Origin: Pseudomonadota bacterium
GTDB taxonomy: Bacteria; Desulfobacterota; JAPLJL01
Assembly (NCBI GenBank): GCA_026388655.1
Contig: JAPLJI010000161.1
Coordinates: forward strand, 1-47,706
DNA: 47,706 nt
Direction of reading: 5' to 3'
Shown here: piece by piece, positions 1 through 24,944 of the stretch
Layout: each line of letters starts with the position of its first letter
Position numbering within the stretch: position 1 is the first letter of the stretch
The notes under the pieces: model-generated
Told to the model about the DNA's origin: nothing
What the model saw: only the letters and a program-made list of their open reading frames with translations
The model's database searches: none
Made by a program: the position numbers and the translations under genes

Positions 1-212
1 TTATTGAGGGTGACCAGTTCCTGGTAGTCTTCTTCCGGAACCTCAATCCCATGCCGTTTGCGCAGTTCCATCACGATGTCGAGAAAATCCATGGAATCGA
101 GTTCAAGCTGTTCCCGGAGGGGAACATCGGGGGCCACGTTGTTCAGGTCTTCATCGGGGGCGATTTCGGCGATGATTTCAAAAATAAGCTTGATGATTTC
201 TTCCCGGGTCAT
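1..212 (-). CDS. Acyl carrier protein, partial (runs off the left edge)
   Basis: Carries acyl intermediates as thioesters on a 4'-phosphopantetheine arm in the cytoplasm. Seen: about 70 residues from ATG at 212, acidic and helical, with the attachment motif LELDSMDFLD; the modified serine would be Ser40. A Shine-Dalgarno-like AGAGGAC lies just upstream. Only the last helix should be missing, since carrier proteins are usually 75-90 residues. It is the last visible gene of a minus-strand series, downstream of a ketoacyl-ACP synthase and three membrane acyltransferases. I infer that it is a dedicated carrier for that cluster and not the housekeeping AcpP, because none of the usual fatty-acid synthesis neighbours are present. 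The family call is firm; the specific role is inferred. Confidence 0.9.
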   Translation of the reverse strand, partial: MTREEIIKLIFEIIAEIAPDEDLNNVAPDVPLREQLELDSMDFLDIVMELRKRHGIEVPEEDYQELVTLN

Positions 213-392
213 GTTTTGTCCTCTCCTCTATAAAATCCCAATTACCAATAACCAAATAAATCCCAATTCGAAAACCAAATATTTCAAATCTGAAACTTCT
301 ATTTACTTTGTTTTCATTCGTCAATCATCATTCGTTAATCGTAAATTTTTATTAACCCGAAACTTTCTTCGGTGTCAGTGTCGGTGTCGGTT

Positions 393-424
393 AACCTTGA
401 ACCTTGAACCTTGAACCTTGAACC
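393..424. repeat. Short tandem repeat (AACCTTG)4
   Basis: Four full copies and one partial copy of a 7-bp unit lie just downstream of the ketoacyl synthase stop, next to a second short reiteration (GTGTCGGTGTCGG) at 379-391. Similar low-complexity strings of the type TCAAAGTTCAAA occur at 9935-10020. The rest of the 213-427 spacer is AT-rich and I see no gene or clear terminator in it. Confidence 0.8.
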
Positions 425-427
425 CTA

Positions 428-1660
428 TTAGGGAACATACCGTTTCACGATCAGGGTACTATTCAGCCCCAGCATCCCAAAGGAGTTGTTGAGAATGTAA
501 TCGACCTTGTCTTTTTCCCGGGGTTTCCCGATCAGGAGGTTGGGGAGGTTGCATTCGGGATCCAGCTCTTCAATGTTTATGGTCGGGTGAACGATGCGGT
601 CGGTAAAAGACGGGAGATTCCCCGCCAGTTCGAGCGCGCCGGCCGCCCCCATGGTGTGGCCGATGAAGCTCTTGGTGTTATTGATGAAAACGCCGGTTTT
701 TTCCCCGAAGACTTTATGAATCGCCTTGCATTCGACAATGTCTCCTCCCCGGGTCCCGGTGGCGTGGGTATTGATGATATCAATGCTTTCCGGTTGGATC
801 CCGGCCTTGCGGATGGCCTTTTCCATGCATTCCGCCTGCCGCTCGGCATTGGGCAGGACGTAATCGCTCGCGTCGGAGTTGATGCAGTAGCCGGCCAGCT
901 CGGCGTAAATCCGGGCATTTCGTTTCCGCGCCTGATCGAGGCGCTCCAGGACCAACACACCTCCCCCGTTGGAGACGACCACGCCGGTGCGGTGTAGGTC
1001 AAACGGGCGGGAGGCCTTGGCCGGGTCTTCATGCTCGGCCAATTCCCCCTCGGCCTTGAAGCCGGCGAAAACCCCAAACTCCACGGCGCATTCGGAGACT
1101 CCCCCGGAGAGGGCGATGTCCACCTCATCTTGAAGCAGCATCTGCATCCCGTGGATTATCCCGATGTTTCCCGCCGCGCAGGCGCCTCCCAGGGTGTAAT
1201 GGGGCCCGGTAATTTTCAGATTCAGGGTAACTTCGCCGGCCGGGTTGTTGGCGATGGACCGCGGGTTCTGGTGGTGTGACCAGAAGCGAATTTCATCGTT
1301 GTGTTCCCGGAGACTCTGGATTTCGGTGAAGGTCTCCAGGGTTCCATGTTCCGTAATCCCGATGTAGACCCCGACGCGGGAGCGATCGATATTTTCCAGG
1401 CTGATCCCGGCATTCTGCAGGGCTTCCCCCGAGCAAAAAGTGGCAATCGAACCGGCCACCGTCCCACGGCGACGGGCCTTTTTGGTCTGATGGCGAAACT
1501 CGTCAAAGGCACAAATCCCGGCGCAAACCTTTCCCAGGTGCCGGACCTCGATATGCCGGATTCCGCTGATCCCGGCCAGGAGGCGGGAACGGTACTCTTC
1601 CAGACCGTTCCCGATGGGCGAGGCCAGACCTATACCGCTGATGACAACCCGATCATTTAT
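428..1660 (-). CDS. Beta-ketoacyl-ACP synthase, KAS II (FabF) type
   Basis: Condenses an acyl thioester with malonyl-ACP, releasing CO2. With the start at 1660 the protein is 410 residues. The Cys-His-His triad is visible: Cys161 in GGACAAG, His299 in THATGT and His335 in SFIGHTMGAAG, almost the spacing of E. coli FabF (163/303/340). The N-terminal strand VVISGIGLASPIG, typical of the family, lies upstream of the first canonical start (GTG at 1459), so the gene must begin further up. No ATG, GTG or TTG exists in frame between the upstream TGA and that strand. Initiation at ATA 1660 or ATC 1669, the latter behind AAGGGGG, is therefore proposed; a sequencing or assembly error is the alternative. 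It lies between the acyltransferases and the carrier protein and could be an ordinary elongation enzyme or part of a special lipid pathway. Confidence 0.88.
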   Translation of the reverse strand: MNDRVVISGIGLASPIGNGLEEYRSRLLAGISGIRHIEVRHLGKVCAGICAFDEFRHQTKKARRRGTVAGSIATFCSGEALQNAGISLENIDRSRVGVYIGITEHGTLETFTEIQSLREHNDEIRFWSHHQNPRSIANNPAGEVTLNLKITGPHYTLGGACAAGNIGIIHGMQMLLQDEVDIALSGGVSECAVEFGVFAGFKAEGELAEHEDPAKASRPFDLHRTGVVVSNGGGVLVLERLDQARKRNARIYAELAGYCINSDASDYVLPNAERQAECMEKAIRKAGIQPESIDIINTHATGTRGGDIVECKAIHKVFGEKTGVFINNTKSFIGHTMGAAGALELAGNLPSFTDRIVHPTINIEELDPECNLPNLLIGKPREKDKVDYILNNSFGMLGLNSTLIVKRYVP

Positions 1661-1791
1661 TCCGATGATGTTTTCCCCCTTAATAACCCTGAGCAGGTTA
1701 TATATTCAGATTTAATAATGGAGTATGCCAGGGAAGTCAAGTAATTATCTTCCCCGGCTGGCCCGTCTCTCCCGTCCATAGCCGGGCCACC

Positions 1792-1811
1792 TCCGCGAAC
1801 CGCGGATTTTT
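1792..1811 (+). terminator. Hairpin followed by T-run
   Basis: TCCGCG and CGCGGA pair across a 3-base loop and are followed by TTTTT on the plus strand. The genes on both sides run on the minus strand, where no T-run follows the hairpin. If functional it would stop antisense transcription. A second inverted pair, CCCGGC/GCCGGG, lies just to its left (about 1753-1786). Weak evidence. Confidence 0.25.
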
Positions 1812-1826
1812 CAGAAGGGGGAGATA

Positions 1827-2864
1827 TTAGGGGAAAGGGGGGAGAAAAGACGAAGACAACCACTCGCGGAGCGGCTCGATGTTGTGAAGATCAATAATGA
1901 GGTCAAAGGATTTGAGGGCGATGGATCCGGTTAGGATCATGAAAGTGATTTGCACGGGAACAAGAATGAAAGGCAGAACCGGACTCCGGGATGCCTGCTT
2001 ATAAAATTTGGTAAACCGTCTTCGGAGAATCCGCTTGATGACCAATTCCGCCGCCACGGCGAGACCTTGAAGAGCGAAAAATAACAACAGGTACCCCGTG
2101 ATCTTATTGGAACTGACATCGAACTGGTATTCATGGATTAACCCGCTGAAAAGAAAAGTGGCGAGGACCCCGGCCACGGCCCCCATCCGGTTGGCCAGCG
2201 GCAGGAATAAGTATTTAAACAGGGACTGTCCCACATAAAGATTGACCCGATTGGACCAGAAATCCCAGGGCGAGGTGGCCAGGATCGGTTCCCGGTAAAT
2301 GGGGGTGATTTTTTGACCCGCCAACAGGCAAAAACCGTAATAAAAATCGGTCAGTCCGACCGCGATGATATAAAAATAAATCACCTTGGAAGCCACGCTG
2401 ACCCAATAACCCCACTCCGGGGTACGAAAGTAGGTGTTGGCCAGAATGAGAACAAAGGTGAAGAGGAATTTCACCAGGCCAAAATGGAGGTAGCGAAGCC
2501 CAGTCTTTACCCTTTTATCCCGGTCGGTTTTTTCCGACGCGTCATGGTTTTCCCCCCCGAAACCGGAAGCAATATTGGAAAAATAATCGCGGAAGGAGAG
2601 GGTGGAGATCCGGCCTTGGGCGATGCAATCGGCCTGGTTCAGGTTTTGAATTACTAGGTTGAACAATGGTATGAAGAGAAAGAAACGGATCAGCTTGTGC
2701 TCGGGGGAAATCAGGAAAGGCAGGGCGAGAATGAGCAGATGAAGCGGGAGGAGGGTCAGGAAAGCGGATTTAAATTTTTTCGTATGGGCAAGGACAAAGT
2801 ATCCGGGCAGGAAGGCCAGAAAATAGAGGGAGAAAAAAACGCTGAGGGATTGAGCCAGATTCAT
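1827..2864 (-). CDS. MBOAT-family (wax synthase-like) membrane acyltransferase, copy 1
   Basis: Likely transfers an acyl group to an alcohol or hydroxyl acceptor within the inner membrane. It has 345 residues and many hydrophobic segments. The two hallmark motifs of plant wax-synthase-type MBOATs are present: an Asn-containing DFWSNRVNLY (Asn205) and ATFLFSGLIHEYQFD with the catalytic-type His244. A C-terminal FDLIIDLH is shared with the two upstream paralogues. The open frame extends further upstream, but that stretch overlaps the neighbouring gene and has no membrane character, so ATG at 2864 is chosen; its ribosome site is weak. It lies 83 bases behind copy 2. A soluble loop around residues 105-122 is richly charged. 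Substrate and acceptor cannot be read from the sequence; wax or sterol-like esters, or acylated glycolipids, are possibilities. Confidence 0.8.
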   Translation of the reverse strand: MNLAQSLSVFFSLYFLAFLPGYFVLAHTKKFKSAFLTLLPLHLLILALPFLISPEHKLIRFFLFIPLFNLVIQNLNQADCIAQGRISTLSFRDYFSNIASGFGGENHDASEKTDRDKRVKTGLRYLHFGLVKFLFTFVLILANTYFRTPEWGYWVSVASKVIYFYIIAVGLTDFYYGFCLLAGQKITPIYREPILATSPWDFWSNRVNLYVGQSLFKYLFLPLANRMGAVAGVLATFLFSGLIHEYQFDVSSNKITGYLLLFFALQGLAVAAELVIKRILRRRFTKFYKQASRSPVLPFILVPVQITFMILTGSIALKSFDLIIDLHNIEPLREWLSSSFLPPFP

Positions 2865-2947
2865 TAAAGGTTTCCCATTCCAAGATTCAGCCGGGGTGAC
2901 TTCACTGGGTTCAAACCGCAAGCTCTCCGGGGCCGGAATATTTTTCG

Positions 2948-4012
2948 CTAAATCGGGAAGGGTGGAAGGGGGAGGGAGGCCAGGAAGTGTTGGACAAACC
3001 CCAACTGGTGCAGATCCACGATCTTGTCGAAGGACATGAAACCGATCGCCCCGGTAAAGAGCTGCCAGAGGCAATGGATGGGCACGAAGACAAAAGGCAT
3101 GGCTGGGCTCTCGGAGGCCTTTTGATAGAAGGCTTTGTGGTTCCGGCGGAAGTAACGCTTGAGCTTCTGCTCGGTCATCACCGCCAGGCCGTGCATGTTG
3201 AAATATAGAAATACCCACCCGAATCCGGCCGGGTCCATGGAAGCGGTATCGAACTGGTATTCGTGGATCATCCCGCTGACCAGGAAGGTCGCCATGATCC
3301 CGATCCCGGGCCGCTTCGGCCCGCCGATCGGAAGGTAGACAAACCGCAGGAGATAGCCGCGGATGTAAAGATTAAGCCGGTTGGACCAGAAGTCCTCGGG
3401 TGAAATCGAGCGGATCGGGGCGTGATAAATGGCCGAGACTTCTTTCCCGGTGAAACGACAGTAGCTGAAATTCAAATTAGCCATCCCCGAGGCAAAAAAG
3501 TACATATACCCCACCTTGCTGATCACGCTGGAAGGGTAATTCCACTCCTCGGTCCGGAGGTAGGTATTGAGAAGAATTAAAAAGCACCCACAGCCGATGT
3601 CCCAGAGGGCTCCGAGGAGATAGGTAAACCCTTCTTTAAAATCCGGCCGGCGTTTTTCCTGGGGGGAGTCCTGGGTTCCGAATCCGGTGCTTAAAAAATT
3701 TATATAATATTTGAAAGTAATCGGTTCGTCGGGCGAGTTTTTCCGCTGGATGGCCAGGTCGATATTCCGGAGGACAAAATTAAACAAGGGCAGGAAAATA
3801 AAAAAACGAAGGAGTTTGTTGAAAATGGCTCCCTCCGTATTTGGGATTAAGAGGGGAAGGAACATGACAAAAGCGAAAAGCGGGATGAAGCAGAAAGTGA
3901 TAACCCGGGTGGATCTGGCCCGGGATTGAACCAGGTAAGCGGGCAGGAAAGCAAAAAGATACCCCAAAACGAAAAGGCCTATCCCGGAATATAATGAAAT
4001 CGAGCTGAACAT
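2948..4012 (-). CDS. MBOAT-family (wax synthase-like) membrane acyltransferase, copy 2
   Basis: Polytopic membrane protein of 354 residues, paralogous to the genes on both sides. It keeps both hallmark sites: DFWSNRLNLY (Asn211) and ATFLVSGMIHEYQFD (His250). Its C-terminal FDKIVDLHQLGF matches the other copies. Between the first four hydrophobic segments and the active-site half there is a hydrophilic loop (about 110-128) containing several Lys, Arg and Asp. It starts 12 bases after the stop of copy 3, so the two are surely co-transcribed. The closest resemblance is to copy 1, as both share the IHEYQFD sequence, which suggests a later duplication of this pair. Function is as for copy 1, and the different copies may have different acceptors. 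Confidence 0.8.
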   Translation of the reverse strand: MFSSISLYSGIGLFVLGYLFAFLPAYLVQSRARSTRVITFCFIPLFAFVMFLPLLIPNTEGAIFNKLLRFFIFLPLFNFVLRNIDLAIQRKNSPDEPITFKYYINFLSTGFGTQDSPQEKRRPDFKEGFTYLLGALWDIGCGCFLILLNTYLRTEEWNYPSSVISKVGYMYFFASGMANLNFSYCRFTGKEVSAIYHAPIRSISPEDFWSNRLNLYIRGYLLRFVYLPIGGPKRPGIGIMATFLVSGMIHEYQFDTASMDPAGFGWVFLYFNMHGLAVMTEQKLKRYFRRNHKAFYQKASESPAMPFVFVPIHCLWQLFTGAIGFMSFDKIVDLHQLGFVQHFLASLPLPPFPI

Positions 4013-4023
4013 TTAGGTAAAAT

Positions 4024-5049
4024 TTAGAATCGGCTACAAATTTCTATCATAAAACCAATCCGGTGAAAGTCAATTACGAGATCCACGGCCCGGAAGAAGA
4101 GCTGGCCGGTCAGGACGAAGAAAACAAGATTGGCGGCGATTTGCAGGGCCTCGGCCGGTTTTCCTTTCCACCAGAAACGGTAGATTTCCGGGAATCCCCT
4201 CCGGACCGGGCGCTTGATCGCCCGGATGAACATGACGGTAACCCCATGGATCATGAAAAAAGCGAGCATATAGCCTTTGATTCCGCCGATGGCAATGTCG
4301 AACCCGAATTCATGAAGCAGGCCGCTGGCCAGGAAGGTTAAAAAAGTGGCCCGGTAGGGATGGTGGAGCGCGTCCAGGGGAAGAAAAATATAGCGTTGAA
4401 TAAGGTCAATTATCGGCAGGTTCCACCGGTTAAACCAGAAATCGGCCGGGGAACGGGAAAGGACCGGTTCCCGGAGGTTCACCCGGCCGGCGATTCCAAC
4501 CATTCGGCCGATCCCATAGTAAATGTCCATGAACCCCACGAACATTAAGTACCATTCGGACATTTTGGAGATGAGGTTGAGCCAATAAAAAGTTATCGGG
4601 GTTTGAAAACAGGTATTGCCGGCCATTAAGAAAAAAACAAAACCGAACATTACGGTCCCGCGGAAGATTTGGAAGATGCCGGAGAAATCGCGCGGAAGAG
4701 GTTTCCCGTTGGGACCAGGGTATTGCAGGGCCAGGGCGAAAAAGGTGTAGAAGAAAAATTTGTAAAATGGCGGTCTTTCCGGAAAAGGTGGCTTGGCCGA
4801 CATAAAATCCAGGCTCCGGGCGGTGAGAAAACCCGAGCCCAGAACGATCAGGAGGCGAAACAGGCGGTAATCAAAAGGAATAACCAAGGGCAGGGCCAGG
4901 AGGGGCAGCCAGTTGATCCCCAGGAGGAGATTGCGGACCTTTTTATTTGAGATTTTGAAAATGATAATATAGGTAATAAAACAACTGGCCGAAAGGCAAA
5001 GCAGACTGGAGCAGAGTCGAAAAATAAAAATGCCGAAATCTAGAGGCAT
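4024..5049 (-). CDS. MBOAT-family (wax synthase-like) membrane acyltransferase, copy 3
   Basis: First gene of the leftward cluster; 341 residues with hydrophobic segments throughout. Hallmarks are DFWFNRWNL (Asn207) and TFLASGLLHEFGFD (His246). It is the most divergent of the three, with a shorter central loop (about 83-97, Pro/Lys-rich) and C-terminal VDLVIDFHRIGF. No Shine-Dalgarno sequence is seen before ATG 5049. A TATAAT hexamer lies immediately upstream on the minus strand (5051-5056), with only a poor -35 candidate (TTTGGT). Transcription might start almost at the ATG, giving a very short or absent leader; this is inference. The upstream spacer is largely filled by a repeat. Confidence 0.78.
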   Translation of the reverse strand: MPLDFGIFIFRLCSSLLCLSASCFITYIIIFKISNKKVRNLLLGINWLPLLALPLVIPFDYRLFRLLIVLGSGFLTARSLDFMSAKPPFPERPPFYKFFFYTFFALALQYPGPNGKPLPRDFSGIFQIFRGTVMFGFVFFLMAGNTCFQTPITFYWLNLISKMSEWYLMFVGFMDIYYGIGRMVGIAGRVNLREPVLSRSPADFWFNRWNLPIIDLIQRYIFLPLDALHHPYRATFLTFLASGLLHEFGFDIAIGGIKGYMLAFFMIHGVTVMFIRAIKRPVRRGFPEIYRFWWKGKPAEALQIAANLVFFVLTGQLFFRAVDLVIDFHRIGFMIEICSRF

Positions 5050-5097: not shown

Positions 5098-5200
5098 CCT
5101 CTCCTTCAGGACGAGAGCCCTTTCCCTCGACCCCGAAAGGGGTCTCGGGACGAGAACCCCAGAGGGGCAGGACGAGTCCCTCGATGGGAGAGGGCCTGGG
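5098..5200. repeat. Interspersed repeat family A, copy 1
   Basis: The core 5101-5181 recurs in inverted orientation at 7643-7723 with a single mismatch in 81 bases, and a shorter diverged copy lies at 24898-24944. Each holds an internal palindrome (CGACCCCGAAAGGGGTCTCG). It occupies the intergenic space between the acyltransferase cluster and the secreted-protein gene, so translated frames through it are not credible protein. Confidence 0.85.
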
Positions 5201-5205
5201 TGAGG

Positions 5206-6633
5206 GTGACAAATCAAATCTGGAAATTCAGGCAAATCGCGGTGATTTTGATTATCGGGTTGATGTTTTTCTCTCCCCAAGCCCGGGCCGAAGCCACCTT
5301 TCCTGTCCCCGTAACCACTGAAGTCAGGACCCTGAAGCGGTTGATCGATCCGATCGTGATCAGGATGGGAAAGTTTCCCGGTTTTCCGGGTGAGAAAATC
5401 GGCCCGCTCCGATGGATGGCGGTCAGGAACGGGGCCTGGGAGGTAATCCCCTTCCAGGTTGATGAAGTTGATAAGAATGGGGAATACATCTTCCCGATCG
5501 TGTATAAAAATGGAAGTTTTCAGGCGGCCGGGGCCGGGAAAGGGCAGGGAATCGTCAGTTCCCGGGACGAGCTGGTTTTTATCTCCCGGGACCTGGGGGA
5601 CCGCGCGAAGGGGAACCAGTGGCCGGCGAGCCCGGGGATGGAGATCGAGGTCCGGGATCCTCTTGAAGGGGGGAGAGGCTATGCCTACTTTTTCCGTTTC
5701 CCGGAGACCCCGCCGCTGTCCCCGCGCGATTACGTGAATATCAGCCCGGATGGCAAACTGATCCTGACCGAGGAATATGTTTTCGGGTTTACCGATCCCG
5801 TGCACCCGGCTGTTTTCAACCTGGCGGCGTTTTTCGCCCGGGGGGCAAGCCGGAATATCGAAGAGTCCCGCCGGCGGAATATCCTCGACCGCCTGAAAAT
5901 CCGGGCCACCATCCGGTTTCTGGGGGGAAAGATCAGGATGAGCTGGGACGAGACCGACCCGAAATCGGAGTTGATTGCTTACCTGGACGGTCCGGTGAGG
6001 GTGATCCAGAAATACCGTTACTGGGTGGACCTGGTTCTCGGGATTCCTTCGCCTTCAATTGGCCGGCTCGTGTATAGTTACCCCAATCGCACCGTCTTGC
6101 CTAACGATATGTATCTGCCCTTCAACCCGGACGCATTTGTCACCGACGGAGCAATCTCGGTCGCCCTGGATTTTACCCGCCACGCCGTGGGCTCCTATCT
6201 TTACAATCCGATCCTGGAAAAACCCGTCCTCATTGACGGGAAGATGTCACCCGAAGAGAAAATGGTTTCGGATTTCACGATCGCACTTTCAGAGAAACTG
6301 GCTCCCTGGGTGCTTTTCTATAACCCCGAGGGAGCGGTCCTGGGGCGGCTTTTACTGAGCGACAAGATCTGGAATGAGTTTCACCGGCTCGAACCCCGGG
6401 GCACTTTTCGTTATTCGTTTTTCTATACCGATGACGCCGCCGCCTCGGATGACCCCGGGCTGGAGCCGGGTAAATTCGGGGAGTTTGGTTTCCAGGGCAA
6501 AGGCAAAGCGGATGTGCAGCAGGGACATTATTACGCCAGCATCATTTTCTTCGGGAAAAGAGGGTTCACGTTTGGGGAGCAGGGTGAATTTCTGCAGGTG
6601 GACGATAATCCGCTTGAGGTCACGATCAGATAA
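5206..6633 (+). CDS. Secreted protein of unknown function
   Basis: I do not recognise the family. From GTG 5206 the protein has 475 residues and begins with a signal peptide: a short basic start, a hydrophobic core (about residues 10-22) and a likely cleavage after PQARA. The mature part is rich in aromatic and beta-forming residues. It contains a conserved-looking IPFQVDEVDKNGEY near the start and later a segment reading ETDPKSELIAYLDGPVRV. No cofactor or catalytic motif is evident. The frame stays open upstream to 5056, but that part is repeat family A, so the longer start is rejected; GTG at 5200 is an alternative. The gene is divergent from the acyltransferase cluster and stands alone. 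A periplasmic or surface role is the most that can be inferred. Confidence 0.75.
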   Translation: MTNQIWKFRQIAVILIIGLMFFSPQARAEATFPVPVTTEVRTLKRLIDPIVIRMGKFPGFPGEKIGPLRWMAVRNGAWEVIPFQVDEVDKNGEYIFPIVYKNGSFQAAGAGKGQGIVSSRDELVFISRDLGDRAKGNQWPASPGMEIEVRDPLEGGRGYAYFFRFPETPPLSPRDYVNISPDGKLILTEEYVFGFTDPVHPAVFNLAAFFARGASRNIEESRRRNILDRLKIRATIRFLGGKIRMSWDETDPKSELIAYLDGPVRVIQKYRYWVDLVLGIPSPSIGRLVYSYPNRTVLPNDMYLPFNPDAFVTDGAISVALDFTRHAVGSYLYNPILEKPVLIDGKMSPEEKMVSDFTIALSEKLAPWVLFYNPEGAVLGRLLLSDKIWNEFHRLEPRGTFRYSFFYTDDAAASDDPGLEPGKFGEFGFQGKGKADVQQGHYYASIIFFGKRGFTFGEQGEFLQVDDNPLEVTIR

Positions 6634-6677: not shown

Positions 6678-7445
6678 TCAGCGGTCAGCTATCGATTTCC
6701 TCTCCCGATCAAGAAATTCCAGAATCTCCCGCCGGTAGCGGTTGAATTCCGTCGAGGTTCGTTCCTTGGGATAATCGAGCTCGATGGAAAAGTCGGCCTT
6801 GATTTTCCCGGGACGCTGGGAGAGCCCGAGCACGGTCTGGCTCAAGAAAACGGCCTCGTCAATATTGTGGGTGACGAAAAGGATGGCGGGACGTTCATCC
6901 CGGAAAAGCTTGAGCAGAAATTCCTGCATGGAATTGCGGGTCTGGGAATCCAGGGCCCCAAAGGGTTCGTCCATCAGGATCACCCGGGGATGGGTGGCCA
7001 GGGTCCGGGCGATGGCCACCCTTTGCTGCATTCCTTCGGATAACTGGCGGGGGAAGTGGTTTTCGAATCCGGAAAGCCCGGTCTTCCGCAGAAGTTCCCG
7101 CGCCTGTTTTCTTCGCTCGGGAGGTTTTATCCCCTGGATTTCCAGACCGAATTCGATGTTCTTGAGGATGTTTCTCCAGGGGAAGAGGGCGAATTCCTGG
7201 AAGACCAGCCCGATTTTCGGGGTGGGGGCGGAGATTTCCTCCCCGTCCAGAAGAACCCGGCCGGCGGTGGGCCTGGAGAGACCGGCCGCGATCTTGAGGA
7301 GGGTGGTTTTCCCGCACCCGGATGGGCCGATCACCGTGGTGAACCGGCCGTTTTCGAGTTCCAGGTTTATCCCGGCCAGGGCCGGGGTGGGGATTTCCCC
7401 CGGGCCGGGGTATTCCTTGGAAATGTTTTCCAGAACCAGGCTCAT
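6678..7445 (-). CDS. ABC transporter ATP-binding protein, taurine/nitrate (SsuB/TauB) type
   Basis: Couples ATP hydrolysis to import through a membrane partner. It has 255 residues with Walker A GPSGCGKT (40-47), a Q-loop in FQEFALFPW, signature LSEGMQQR (135-142), Walker B VILMDE (155-160) followed by PFGALD, and the switch histidine in FVTHNIDEA. The strings FPWR and MDEPFGALDSQTR are typical of the sulfonate, taurine and nitrate importer group. The natural partner is the permease at 9083-9856, on the same strand but separated by an oppositely oriented oxidoreductase gene. No periplasmic binding protein is present in the window. Substrate is unknown. Confidence 0.92.
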   Translation of the reverse strand: MSLVLENISKEYPGPGEIPTPALAGINLELENGRFTTVIGPSGCGKTTLLKIAAGLSRPTAGRVLLDGEEISAPTPKIGLVFQEFALFPWRNILKNIEFGLEIQGIKPPERRKQARELLRKTGLSGFENHFPRQLSEGMQQRVAIARTLATHPRVILMDEPFGALDSQTRNSMQEFLLKLFRDERPAILFVTHNIDEAVFLSQTVLGLSQRPGKIKADFSIELDYPKERTSTEFNRYRREILEFLDRERKSIADR

Positions 7446-7504
7446 AAGTTAAATAAATCTATTAAAGTTGCAGCAGTGTCAATAGATTGGTAATATCCCC
7501 CTCA

Positions 7505-7573
7505 CCTCTCCGAGCCGTAGGCTCCTACCCTCCGGCCTGTAAGCCCTACGGGCTGGAAGCGGAGCCGGAGGCC
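7505..7573 (-). repeat. Interspersed repeat family B, short form
   Basis: Reverse complement of the element at 10066-10167 and 18598-18699. It lacks about 32 bases in the middle, where the longer copies carry a partial duplication of the CTTCCAGCCCGTA segment. Otherwise it is essentially identical. Confidence 0.8.
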
Positions 7574-7642
7574 TGCCCTCTCCCGCGAGGGGAGAGGGAT
7601 AGAACAAGAAGATTCTCATCCATGATAATTCCCCTCCCTTGA

Positions 7643-7723
7643 AGGGACTCGTCCTGCCCCTCTGGGGTTTTCGTCCCGAGACCCCTTTCGGGGTCGAGGG
7701 AAAGGGCTCTCGTCCTGAAGGAG
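7643..7723 (-). repeat. Interspersed repeat family A, copy 2
   Basis: Inverted copy of 5101-5181, with 80 of 81 bases identical. This level of identity between two intergenic sites about 2.5 kb apart suggests recent spread or gene conversion. Confidence 0.85.
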
Positions 7724-7868
7724 GGGAAGAAGGGGAGGGTGATATTTGAAATAAGCAGCGGTTGTGATATTTTCAATCTAATTTTTAAGTTTAATCCCAC
7801 TTTATCAAAAGGGGGACTGAGGGGGATTTTTAAGATATTTTTAGGGTGACGAATATCAAGGAGGGAAA

Positions 7869-8933
7869 GTGGCAAAGAAGATTCAGATACTAGGCGCCGG
7901 GCTTTCCGGGATGATCGCGGCGATCGATCTCTCCCGCCATGATTACGAGGTGACCATCCTCGAGGGCGCTCCCGGGATCGGCGGGCTGGGAAACTTTCAT
8001 CCTTCCACCCACGGGACCCCGATTGACGGCCCGGCCGCCTGGAAATACATCGGGCTGGATCTTTCCTCCTGCTTCGTGCCGCCGAAGGCGTTTCGCTGCT
8101 ATTTAGGGAAGCGCGGATTCGACCTGGATCCGGAAGGCCTTTTCCTGGTCGAGCGGGGGCCGCGGGAATCCTCCATCGATCATCTTCTTTACCGCGAAGC
8201 CCAGAAGGTGGGGGTAAAGTTCGAGTTTTCCCACCTTGTCCGGAAGCACCGGGACCTACCCCCGGGGAGCATCATCGCCACCGGGCTTTTCCCGGAGCTC
8301 TACGAAGAGCTCGGGGTGCCCAAACTTCAGGCTTTCGGTTGGGCTACACGCATGGAAATGCAGCGGCCGCCCGAGCTGGTGGCCTATTTTGATAATTATA
8401 TCGGGGATTATTATTACAGCGCCGTCGTCAACGGCATTTTCTTCGGCATGCTGTTCCAGAGAAGCCCGGTTCCCCGGGAGATTATGGAGCGCTGCCGGGC
8501 CTTTCTCCGCGAGCGGGAGGGGCTCGAATCCCCGGATTGGTTTTACGCCACCAATTATGTTCCGGTGATTGACCCTGATAATCCACGGCTTTTTGCCGGT
8601 GACAAGATTTTGGCCGGGACGATCGCCGGGATGATGGATCCGGTATTTCTTTTTGGAATCAACGGGGCAGTGCTCTCCGGACGGATCGCCGCCCGCGCCG
8701 TTTACGAGCGCGACGAGGCCATCAAGGATTTCAAACATTACACCCGCAACTTCCGCCTGAATCACCGGGCCCGGAAGTGGGGGGAGAAGATGCCTCCCCA
8801 GCTCCGGATGTTGTGGGGACGACTTTTCCTGGCCCTGCCCGAGTTTATCCGCCGGGCCCTGGTGCCGACCAGCAAGATCGGCATCCCGGGGATAAAGGAA
8901 TTTCCTTCCTGCCGGGTGATAAAAAAAATATAA
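7869..8933 (+). CDS. FAD/NAD(P)-binding oxidoreductase
   Basis: Probable flavin-dependent oxidoreductase of 354 residues. The N-terminus has a Rossmann dinucleotide fold, ILGAGLSGMIAAIDL (about 7-21) with the ribose-binding glutamate in VTILEGA, followed by GIGGLG. A second FAD-contacting region is GDKILAGTIAGMMDPVFLFGINGAVLSG (around 255-285, written here in parts), the usual site before the last helix of the FAD domain in geranylgeranyl-reductase-like and amine-oxidase-like enzymes. The start is GTG behind AAGGAGGG. No membrane segment is evident. It interrupts two ABC transporter genes of opposite strand, which gives no firm hint of substrate. Reduction of a lipid or quinone-like molecule is possible but unproven. 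Confidence 0.75.
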   Translation: MAKKIQILGAGLSGMIAAIDLSRHDYEVTILEGAPGIGGLGNFHPSTHGTPIDGPAAWKYIGLDLSSCFVPPKAFRCYLGKRGFDLDPEGLFLVERGPRESSIDHLLYREAQKVGVKFEFSHLVRKHRDLPPGSIIATGLFPELYEELGVPKLQAFGWATRMEMQRPPELVAYFDNYIGDYYYSAVVNGIFFGMLFQRSPVPREIMERCRAFLREREGLESPDWFYATNYVPVIDPDNPRLFAGDKILAGTIAGMMDPVFLFGINGAVLSGRIAARAVYERDEAIKDFKHYTRNFRLNHRARKWGEKMPPQLRMLWGRLFLALPEFIRRALVPTSKIGIPGIKEFPSCRVIKKI

Positions 8934-8960
8934 AAATGTTTACGAAGGATTTTCCGACAA

Positions 8961-9057
8961 TGTAGTTTGCCGATTTATCGGCGGTTTTATCACAGAAGGG
9001 CGTAGAAGCAGGGGCAAATCCACGCCCGTGTGGGAGGGCACGAGGCCCTCCCCTACA
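8961..9057. repeat. Half copy of repeat family C plus a strong hairpin
   Basis: 8961-8988 carries the left half of the family C palindrome (TGTAGTTTGCCGATTTATCG). It is followed at 9029-9057 by an inverted repeat in which GGGAGGGC pairs with GCCCTCCC. The latter lies between two convergent genes and could act as a bidirectional transcription stop, although the T-run is weak. Confidence 0.6.
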
Positions 9058-9082
9058 TTTTGGATTTTTTATCCTTACCGGT

Positions 9083-9856
9083 TTATTTTTCTCGGTGAAT
9101 ATTTGATTCGATCAGTAGGATTCCCCGGTCCATCAGGTAGCCGACCAGGCCGATGGCGGCCATGCCGGCGAGAATGGCGTCCACCCTCCCCAAGTCCCGG
9201 GCGGTCATAATCATAAATCCCAGGCCATAACCAGATCTGACCCCGGTCAGTTCGGCGGCGACCAGAGTCATCCAGCCCACGCCCAGGCCGATCCGGATGC
9301 CGGTCAGGACCATCGGCAGGGCCGCGGGGATGAGCACCCTGGTAATCAGGTGAAATTCCCCGGCCCCGAGGGTGCGGGCGGCGTCAAGAAATACCGGGTT
9401 CACTCCCCGGACCCCGGAGATGGTATTCAGGAGAACGGGAAAGAAAATTCCCAGGGCGATTAGAAAAGACGACGATTTCAACCCGATTCCGAACCAGACG
9501 ATCGCAATCGGGATCCAGGCCAGAGGCGGGATCGGCCGGATGAGGTTGACGATCGGGTTCAGGGCTCGGTTGATTTTGGGAGACCAGCCGGCGATGAATC
9601 CCAGGGGCAGGGCCAGGGAAAGGGCAATCGCGAAACCGAGGAAAACCCGGAAGAGGCTGAAGAGGGCATGAAGGTGAAGGCCATGACCGGGGGGAAGACC
9701 CCGGACCAGGAGTTCGATGACGGTTTTGCCCACCGTTGAAGGCGGGGGAAAGATAGCGGGAGAGACCAGGAATAGATCGGCGGCTAACTCCCAGATCAAC
9801 AGAATAATAAGAAGGGGAACAAATCTGAATTTGAAGCTTTTCCGAGGCTTTTCCAT
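9083..9856 (-). CDS. ABC transporter permease, SsuC/TauC type
   Basis: Inner-membrane channel subunit of an ABC importer; 257 residues with about six hydrophobic segments. The cytoplasmic EAA loop that docks on the ATPase is visible as DAARTLGAGEFHLITRVLIP, followed by ALPMVLTGIRIGLG, standard for the BPD_transp_1 family. LIRPIPPLAWIPIAIVWFGIG is the typical segment of the taurine/nitrate group. ATG 9856 is chosen; TTG 9862, two codons upstream, is an alternative. It presumably works with the ATPase at 6678-7445, though the two are about 1.6 kb apart. No substrate-binding protein adjoins it. Confidence 0.9.
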   Translation of the reverse strand: MEKPRKSFKFRFVPLLIILLIWELAADLFLVSPAIFPPPSTVGKTVIELLVRGLPPGHGLHLHALFSLFRVFLGFAIALSLALPLGFIAGWSPKINRALNPIVNLIRPIPPLAWIPIAIVWFGIGLKSSSFLIALGIFFPVLLNTISGVRGVNPVFLDAARTLGAGEFHLITRVLIPAALPMVLTGIRIGLGVGWMTLVAAELTGVRSGYGLGFMIMTARDLGRVDAILAGMAAIGLVGYLMDRGILLIESNIHREK

Positions 9857-10234
9857 AAACAATTTTAAAATACTACTTCCTGATACTTAAAGGTAGATCG
9901 GGGGTTGGAAATTAAGTAGAATGAGAGAGAAAGAAAGCTCAAAGGTCAAAGCTCAAAGTTCAAATCAAGCTCAAATCTCCAAACTTGACATTTTGGTATT
10001 TGGATTTTGAACTTTGAACTTAACTGTCGCTACTATTTATCCTTCTCCCTTGGTGGGAGAGGGGAGGCCTCCGGCTCCGCTTCCAGCCCGTAGGGCTTAC
10101 AGGCCGGCTTCCAGCCCGTAAGGGCCTCCAGCCCGGAGGGAGGGTAGGAGCCTACGGCTCGGAGAGGTGAGGGGGAACAGTATAAAATCCAAAGTCCAAA
10201 ATTCAAAATTTTTTAACCCACCAAAGGATAAATT
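9857..10234. other. Intergenic region, no gene seen
   Basis: Holds low-complexity strings built from CAAAG and TTCAAA units (9935-10020), the family B repeat (10066-10167), and an AT-rich stretch before the small membrane protein gene. No convincing reading frame or classical promoter was found. Confidence 0.7.
10066..10167 (+). repeat. Interspersed repeat family B, long copy 1
   Basis: 102 bases identical, as far as I can align them by eye, to 18598-18699. Both copies contain stacked inverted pairs such as CCGTAGG/CCTACGG and CCGGCTTCC/GGAGCC. Confidence 0.9.
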
Positions 10235-24871: not shown

Positions 24872-24897
24872 ATTTGTTAATTTCAAAGGTCAAAGCT

Positions 24898-24944
24898 TCC
24901 CTCGACCCCGAATGGGGTCTCGGGACGAGGACCCCGGAGGGGCA
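24898..24944 (+). repeat. Repeat family A, partial diverged copy
   Basis: Contains CGACCCCGAATGGGGTCTCG and GGACCCCGGAGGGGCA, matching the middle of 5101-5181 with a few changes. Confidence 0.7.

Follow-up and report, generated by a model that had tools for sequence, protein, structure and literature searches.

Why would three adjacent MBOAT genes stand directly in front of genes for a beta-ketoacyl-ACP synthase (KAS) and an acyl carrier protein (ACP)? The question is raised by one end of the window, by which we mean the whole stretch of 47,706 nucleotides that was analysed, and which is all of contig C136 of genome G000. The original prediction was that the KAS and ACP make an acyl chain that the MBOATs then transfer, and that no system of this make-up had been described. 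We compared the locus with sister genomes and with the rest of the phylum, and modelled the structure of one of the MBOATs.

The five-gene block is conserved in a second species

Five ORFs, all on the minus strand, were found as predicted. MBOAT-A (4024..5049, 341 aa) is the first gene of the operon and the most divergent of the three MBOATs. It is followed by MBOAT-B (2948..4012, 354 aa), MBOAT-C (1827..2864, 345 aa), the KAS (428..1666) and the ACP (1..212); the genes from MBOAT-A to the KAS are separated by 11, 83 and about 160 bases. The ACP is cut off because the window begins at base 1 of the contig; 70 of its 81 aa are present, with a PP-binding score of 38.1 bits and the phosphopantetheine motif DSMDFLDIVMELRKR.

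A search of related genomes for the same gene order found A-B-C-KAS-ACP, in one direction, in G002 (MAG STA_72), a second species of the genus, at 73–88% identity. The individual values are 74% for MBOAT-A, 88% for MBOAT-B, 81% for MBOAT-C, 82% for the KAS and 88% for the ACP. Between the two species dN/dS is 0.20 for MBOAT-A, 0.15 for MBOAT-B and 0.16 for MBOAT-C, and all values determined (the three MBOATs, KAS, CrtI2 and FabG) are within 0.11–0.20. The five-gene block is under purifying selection. Thus, the predicted linkage between the MBOATs, the KAS and the ACP is real.

The KAS clearly belongs to the Pfam ketoacyl-synthase family, and its catalytic Cys, His, Lys and His are conserved, giving a canonical active site. 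It had been labelled a KAS II. The family assignment stands, but the score of 314 bits against the FabF equivalog TIGR03150 is far under the cut-off of 493.75, so the "II" is too specific. There is no ATG, GTG or TTG ahead of the conserved KAS N-terminus in the frame of the window. Eight bases past AAGGGGG there is an ATC (1666–1664), a codon that is conserved in G002, and the sequence context makes this rare codon at 1666 the likely start. In the G002 gene an upstream in-frame GTG is an alternative start. The genome has only one other KAS of the same type, 35% identical to this one, which is presumably the housekeeping FabF. A tblastn search of plasmids with the KAS gave only generic FabF-level matches (36% identity), and the same search with MBOAT-B gave no match.

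One modelled acyltransferase has an MBOAT fold

The three MBOATs are paralogues, with 29–39% identity to MBOAT-C. The original prediction likened their Asn and His positions to those of wax-synthase-type MBOATs. All eight MBOATs of the genus match Pfam MBOAT_2, the curated wax-synthase-type family, with E <0.01, but MBOAT-A, -B and -C score 23.6, 24.4 and 23.0 bits and fall 0.6 to 2 bits under the gathering score of 25; these three are therefore filed in the MBOAT superfamily and not in the MBOAT_2 subfamily. Against Pfam MBOAT, MBOAT-C scores 23.0 bits. A paralogue from the sister genome, MBOAT-D, clears MBOAT_2 with 35.8 bits. A PDB sequence search with the MBOAT profile returned two weak hits, both to one GPCR and taken as chance.

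We modelled MBOAT-C from eight aligned sequences (pLDDT 79.5, pTM 0.75). Over about 300 aligned residues, known structures among the closest were DGAT1 (Z 19.2), DltB (19.1), PORCN (18.6) and ACAT1 (17.2), with LPCAT3 and MBOAT7 at Z 16–17, whereas the best non-MBOAT fold reached Z 6.9. The model thus confirmed the predicted MBOAT fold of MBOAT-C, to which MBOAT-A and -B are tied by common invariant columns. The Asn and His positions pointed out originally are invariant among the eight MBOATs of the genus (N206 and H245 in A1 numbering), and lie in the conserved blocks S-x-x-D-F/L-W-S/F-N-R-x-N and S-G-x-x-H-E that carry the candidate catalytic residues. The choice of Asn is not unique, however; N209, three residues further on, is equally invariant, and the catalytic Asn may be either one, with N206 a possible assignment.

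In the phylum search only two genomes had full-length matches to the MBOAT profile; the other matches covered the core only, mostly in frames of 450–600 aa (the AlgI size class). A contig scan based on the MBOAT alignment used two exact peptide patterns, which limits its sensitivity, and returned only the sister MAG (JAQTNV010000028.1, isolate STA_72). G000 and G002 each have an additional paralogue. MBOAT-D of G002 (L033:817-1878) lies between an exported protein and a glycerol kinase and is not present at the corresponding place in G001, the third member of the genus. MBOAT-E (L035:461-1489), on contig C107, is the fourth full-length MBOAT of G000 and is about 45% identical to MBOAT-B and MBOAT-D of G002. 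Directly 3' of it (L035:1492-2055) is a gene for a 187-aa protein, probably a membrane protein. The genes for D and E lie apart from any KAS; some members, at a minimum, may thus not depend on one.

The operon very probably extends into a dedicated FASII

The G002 operon is contained on one contig and one strand, and reads A-B-C-KAS-ACP-CrtI1-CrtI2-FabG-FabZ-FabI. In G000, contig C178 opens inside CrtI1 (88% identity to G002) and continues with the remaining genes in the G002 order, so it is very probably the continuation of the window to the left of base 1; we infer that one operon very probably spans the two contigs. Judged by sequence, the KAS, ACP, two CrtI-like flavoproteins, FabG, FabZ and FabI are a second, dedicated FASII, with all its genes linked on the single G002 contig and divided between two contigs of G000. 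The operon is thus larger than the five genes originally considered. In both species an MGT/UDPGT-like glycosyltransferase gene lies past FabI in convergent orientation (L032:7196-8500 and L044:5415-6722; 84% identity). Neither the G000 nor the G002 cluster contains a radical SAM ORF.

In G001 one contig ends inside CrtI1 and another ends just upstream of the exported neighbour of MBOAT-A, so that the MBOAT-KAS-ACP stretch would fall into the gap. The complete linkage of MBOATs and cassette is visible in only two genomes, G000 and G002.

Genes on the other side of MBOAT-A

An exported protein of no recognised family is encoded divergently from MBOAT-A (5206..6633, plus strand), and is a candidate accessory part only. 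It is 68–71% identical to its G002 counterparts, is retained by each of the three genomes in the genus, and in G002 lies directly upstream of MBOAT-D. No Pfam or NCBIfam model matched it, and its structure model (pLDDT 50) was too poor to read. The family occurs in 13 genomes of the phylum, with three members in each genome of the genus and homologues in 10 others. Between MBOAT-A and the likely start of this gene is one copy of a dispersed repeat of 48–91 bp (GGGACTCGTCCTGCCCCTCTGGGG...), which is found in the window at 5110-5200 (minus), 7631-7714 (plus) and 24897-24944 (minus) and has about 31 matches in the G000 genome. Further on are the ATPase (6678-7445, minus) and permease (9083-9862, minus) of a taurine/sulfonate-type ABC transporter, and between them an FAD protein with weak similarity to geranylgeranyl reductases (7869-8933, plus). 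This group (6678-9862) was not found beside the operon in G002.

Related cassettes occur with OleA

We used CrtI1 as a marker for the cassette. The CrtI1 family (E<=1e-40) was found in 21 of 395 genomes of the phylum, and 18 genomes outside the genus have orthologues (E <1e-100, 42–57% identity). The neighbourhoods fetched around CrtI1 contain a KAS and an ACP, and most also contain CrtI2, FabG, FabZ and FabI. Identity between the cassette of the genus and those of the 18 outside genomes is about 40–65%; for the KAS it is 56–63%, and for the G002 ACP 54–65%. The motif DSMDFLDIVMEL is near-invariant among the cassette ACPs.

OleA was detected in 17 of the 18 cassette genomes outside the genus, which provides the start of a head-to-head olefin pathway there. 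In ten cassette neighbourhoods OleA is inside the cluster or adjoins the KAS, and eight of these ten also have OleB and OleC, mostly with OleD. The OleC and OleD of the relatives have NCBIfam olefin models as their best or near-best match, with strong scores that are below the equivalog cut-offs. Overall, 38 of the 395 genomes have OleA, comprising 17 of 21 with the cassette versus 21 of 374 without it (Fisher p 5e-16); the test ignores shared ancestry, so this value overstates independence, but the pattern still spans several families. One relative (G188, L092:380-6183) has the order OleA-KAS-ACP-CrtI1, with a gene for a B12-binding radical SAM enzyme next in line, an arrangement reminiscent of ladderane clusters.

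By contrast, an OleA-specific profile that scored 495–596 bits in three controls gave no more than FabH-level matches of 50–56 bits in the genus, whose three genomes are 82–94% complete. OleB, OleC and OleD are not in the operon cluster of the genus. In one other genome, G005 (84% complete), the cassette was found and no OleA or MBOAT was detected. The CrtI2 tree places the genus together with lineages that carry Ole (support 97/99). Very long branches weaken a rooting by CrtI1/CrtI2 paralogy, and only the grouping was used. Although the root is uncertain, this grouping makes a loss of Ole plausible, and favours such a loss together with a gain of the MBOATs. The gene swap as such, with OleA missing and MBOATs at the head of the operon, is well supported.

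A possible role for the MBOATs

An operon that is missing the key hydrocarbon gene and has three MBOATs in front suggests that the chain is attached as an ester lipid. In the pathway we propose, the KAS, FabG, FabZ and FabI would elongate an acyl chain on the dedicated ACP, and the two CrtI-like flavoproteins would change its unsaturation, with double bonds probably introduced or repositioned without oxygen. The acyl-ACP product would probably be polyunsaturated, which is an extension from the FASII/CrtI clusters and hydrocarbons of Desulfotalea psychrophila. In relatives that have both the cassette and OleA, OleABCD would condense two such chains head to head to a long olefin. In the genus, where OleA was not detected, the MBOATs would esterify hydroxylated acceptors with the chain, taken either from the ACP or once moved to CoA; candidate acceptors are a fatty alcohol, a glyceride or glycolipid, and a surface molecule, and each MBOAT probably has its own acceptor or position.

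That the operon makes a special, probably polyunsaturated acyl-ACP, which the MBOATs esterify instead of OleABCD condensing it, is a reading to which we give an even chance. The linkage, the selection and the fold all favour it, and the transfer of a KAS- and ACP-made chain by the MBOATs, as first suggested, is still the best reading of the locus. Points against it include the linkage being visible in only two genomes, the absence of OleA coming from incomplete assemblies, the G005 cassette that has neither OleA nor MBOATs detected, the acyl-CoA donors of DGAT- and ACAT-type MBOATs, the paralogues D and E that lie apart from a KAS, and polyunsaturation going back to a proposal when the anammox CrtI-like proteins that were assayed did not behave as phytoene desaturases. 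The product, acyl donor, acceptors, polyunsaturation and use of the cassette chain by the MBOATs are what we infer here. We hold more tentatively to a fuller version, in which a Pfa-independent, anaerobic FASII/CrtI route would yield a polyunsaturated (or otherwise unprecedented) acyl-ACP, the three MBOATs would transfer it directly from the ACP to distinct acceptors to give bacterial polyunsaturated ester lipids of a new class, and the lineage would have swapped a hydrocarbon-forming for an esterifying module.

The usual donor of DGAT-, ACAT- and wax-synthase-type MBOATs is acyl-CoA. The MBOATs might therefore act on ordinary acyl-CoA as wax-ester or glyceride synthases of a general kind, and lie beside the cassette for co-regulation, for example in cold or membrane adaptation, leaving its product unused. 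DGAT1 and ACAT are among the closest folds to the MBOAT-C model, and paralogues D and E are distant from a KAS, as this explanation would have it. Nonetheless we think it unlikely. A-B-C precede the KAS co-directionally in both species, with gaps of at most about 160 bases in the window, and the pathway that usually consumes the chain lacks its first enzyme, OleA; the MBOATs are the only outlet visible for the cassette.

Could the MBOATs instead work like DltB, AlgI or PatA, adding acyl groups to a surface polymer, a lipoprotein or a glycolipid, while the exported protein at 5206-6633 serves as an extracytoplasmic partner? The position of that protein beside MBOAT-A, its retention in all three genomes and its place next to MBOAT-D would fit, as would the glycosyltransferase past FabI and the high rank of DltB (Z 19.1) among the matching folds. 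On the other hand, it has no recognisable partner domain, and none of the ten other genomes in the phylum with homologues of it has a full-length MBOAT of this kind. The original prediction had drawn an analogy to DltB, which takes its acyl group from an ACP-like carrier; this analogy has proved weak because the ACP is not DltC-like, scoring 23.7 and 24.5 bits against dltC models with cut-offs of 52.35 and 68. Taken together, these observations make a surface-acylating role quite unlikely.

Some MBOATs, such as LPCAT3 and MBOAT7, are lysophospholipid acyltransferases. It is improbable, although these two align with the MBOAT-C model and the cassette resembles the FASII/CrtI clusters of ladderane makers and D. 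psychrophila (PMC2649909), that the operon serves membrane lipids in a ladderane-like or polyene pathway, with the MBOATs loading the special chain onto glycerol backbones in parallel to PlsB/PlsC, given that DGAT1, DltB and PORCN align better than LPCAT3, that the KAS active site is canonical and that no radical SAM gene lies beside the cassette in the genus when ladderane clusters hold several (PMC2649909).

Comparison with known systems

The chain-making half of the operon is already known in outline. In D. psychrophila, a described relative, CrtI-like genes occur within FASII clusters, there is no Pfa-type synthase, and C31:8 and C31:9 hydrocarbons are made; an anaerobic route to polyunsaturated fatty acids, common in part to ladderane-making anammox bacteria, was proposed for it (Rattray et al. 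2009, PMC2649909). Compared by description and gene content only, the cassette is likely to be orthologous to the D. psychrophila genes DP2405/DP2406. Like those clusters it combines an extra KAS and FASII genes with CrtI-like flavoproteins in an anaerobe, and similar cassettes occur across the phylum of the window. Unlike D. psychrophila, which makes hydrocarbons, and the cassette relatives, which carry OleA, the genus shows no detectable OleA and carries three MBOATs before the KAS. PMC2649909 never uses the word "acyltransferase". In the openly licensed papers searched we found no described MBOAT, KAS and ACP lipid operon, no link of CrtI-like FASII cassettes to ole genes, and no demonstration of the cassette chemistry. 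The claim that no such system had been described therefore needs to be narrowed; a FASII/CrtI half of known type occurs elsewhere with OleA, and it is the MBOATs in the place of OleABCD that look new.

How anaerobes without Pfa make polyunsaturated chains, and what CrtI-like enzymes do in FASII clusters, was asked in 2009, and we found no answer to it; the same question bears on ladderane biosynthesis. The natural exchange of the terminal module sets the chain-making half apart. Should the MBOATs esterify what that half makes, one could release the chain from the ester and identify it directly, rather than deduce it from a condensed hydrocarbon, and the operon would be an example of MBOATs supplied by a dedicated fatty-acid ACP.

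Other known systems share parts of this arrangement. In relatives, the OleABCD genes belong to or neighbour the cassette, whose acyl product their enzymes would consume, but in the genus OleA gives way to FabH-level matches. The candidate ladderane clusters of anammox bacteria (kuste3335-3352 and kuste3603-3608; PMC2649909, PMC4790861) likewise combine FASII genes with CrtI-like homologues of phytoene desaturase; the operon has neither their radical SAM genes nor a non-canonical FabF lacking the active site, and nothing in it points to ladderanes. When the anammox genes were expressed no ladderane was obtained, and neither of the two CrtI-like proteins tested desaturated phytoene (PMC4790861). 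DltB and DltC of D-alanylation also pair an MBOAT with a carrier protein, whereas the ACP here is of the fatty-acid type, DltA and DltD are missing from the operon and there are three MBOATs. With the DGAT1/ACAT/wax-synthase-type MBOATs (PF13813, PF03062), the three enzymes share the fold and the conserved D-F/L-W...N and H-E motifs, but they score slightly too low for the Pfam cut-offs and have a dedicated KAS and ACP encoded alongside. Geobacter bemidjiensis, which has a Pfa synthase with Ole and C31:9 (PMC4882568), is also an anaerobe in which a polyunsaturated chain is handed to a dedicated downstream module; its Pfa is a multidomain PKS-like synthase, whereas the operon described here is a dissociated FASII with CrtI-like enzymes and, as the putative downstream module, MBOATs.
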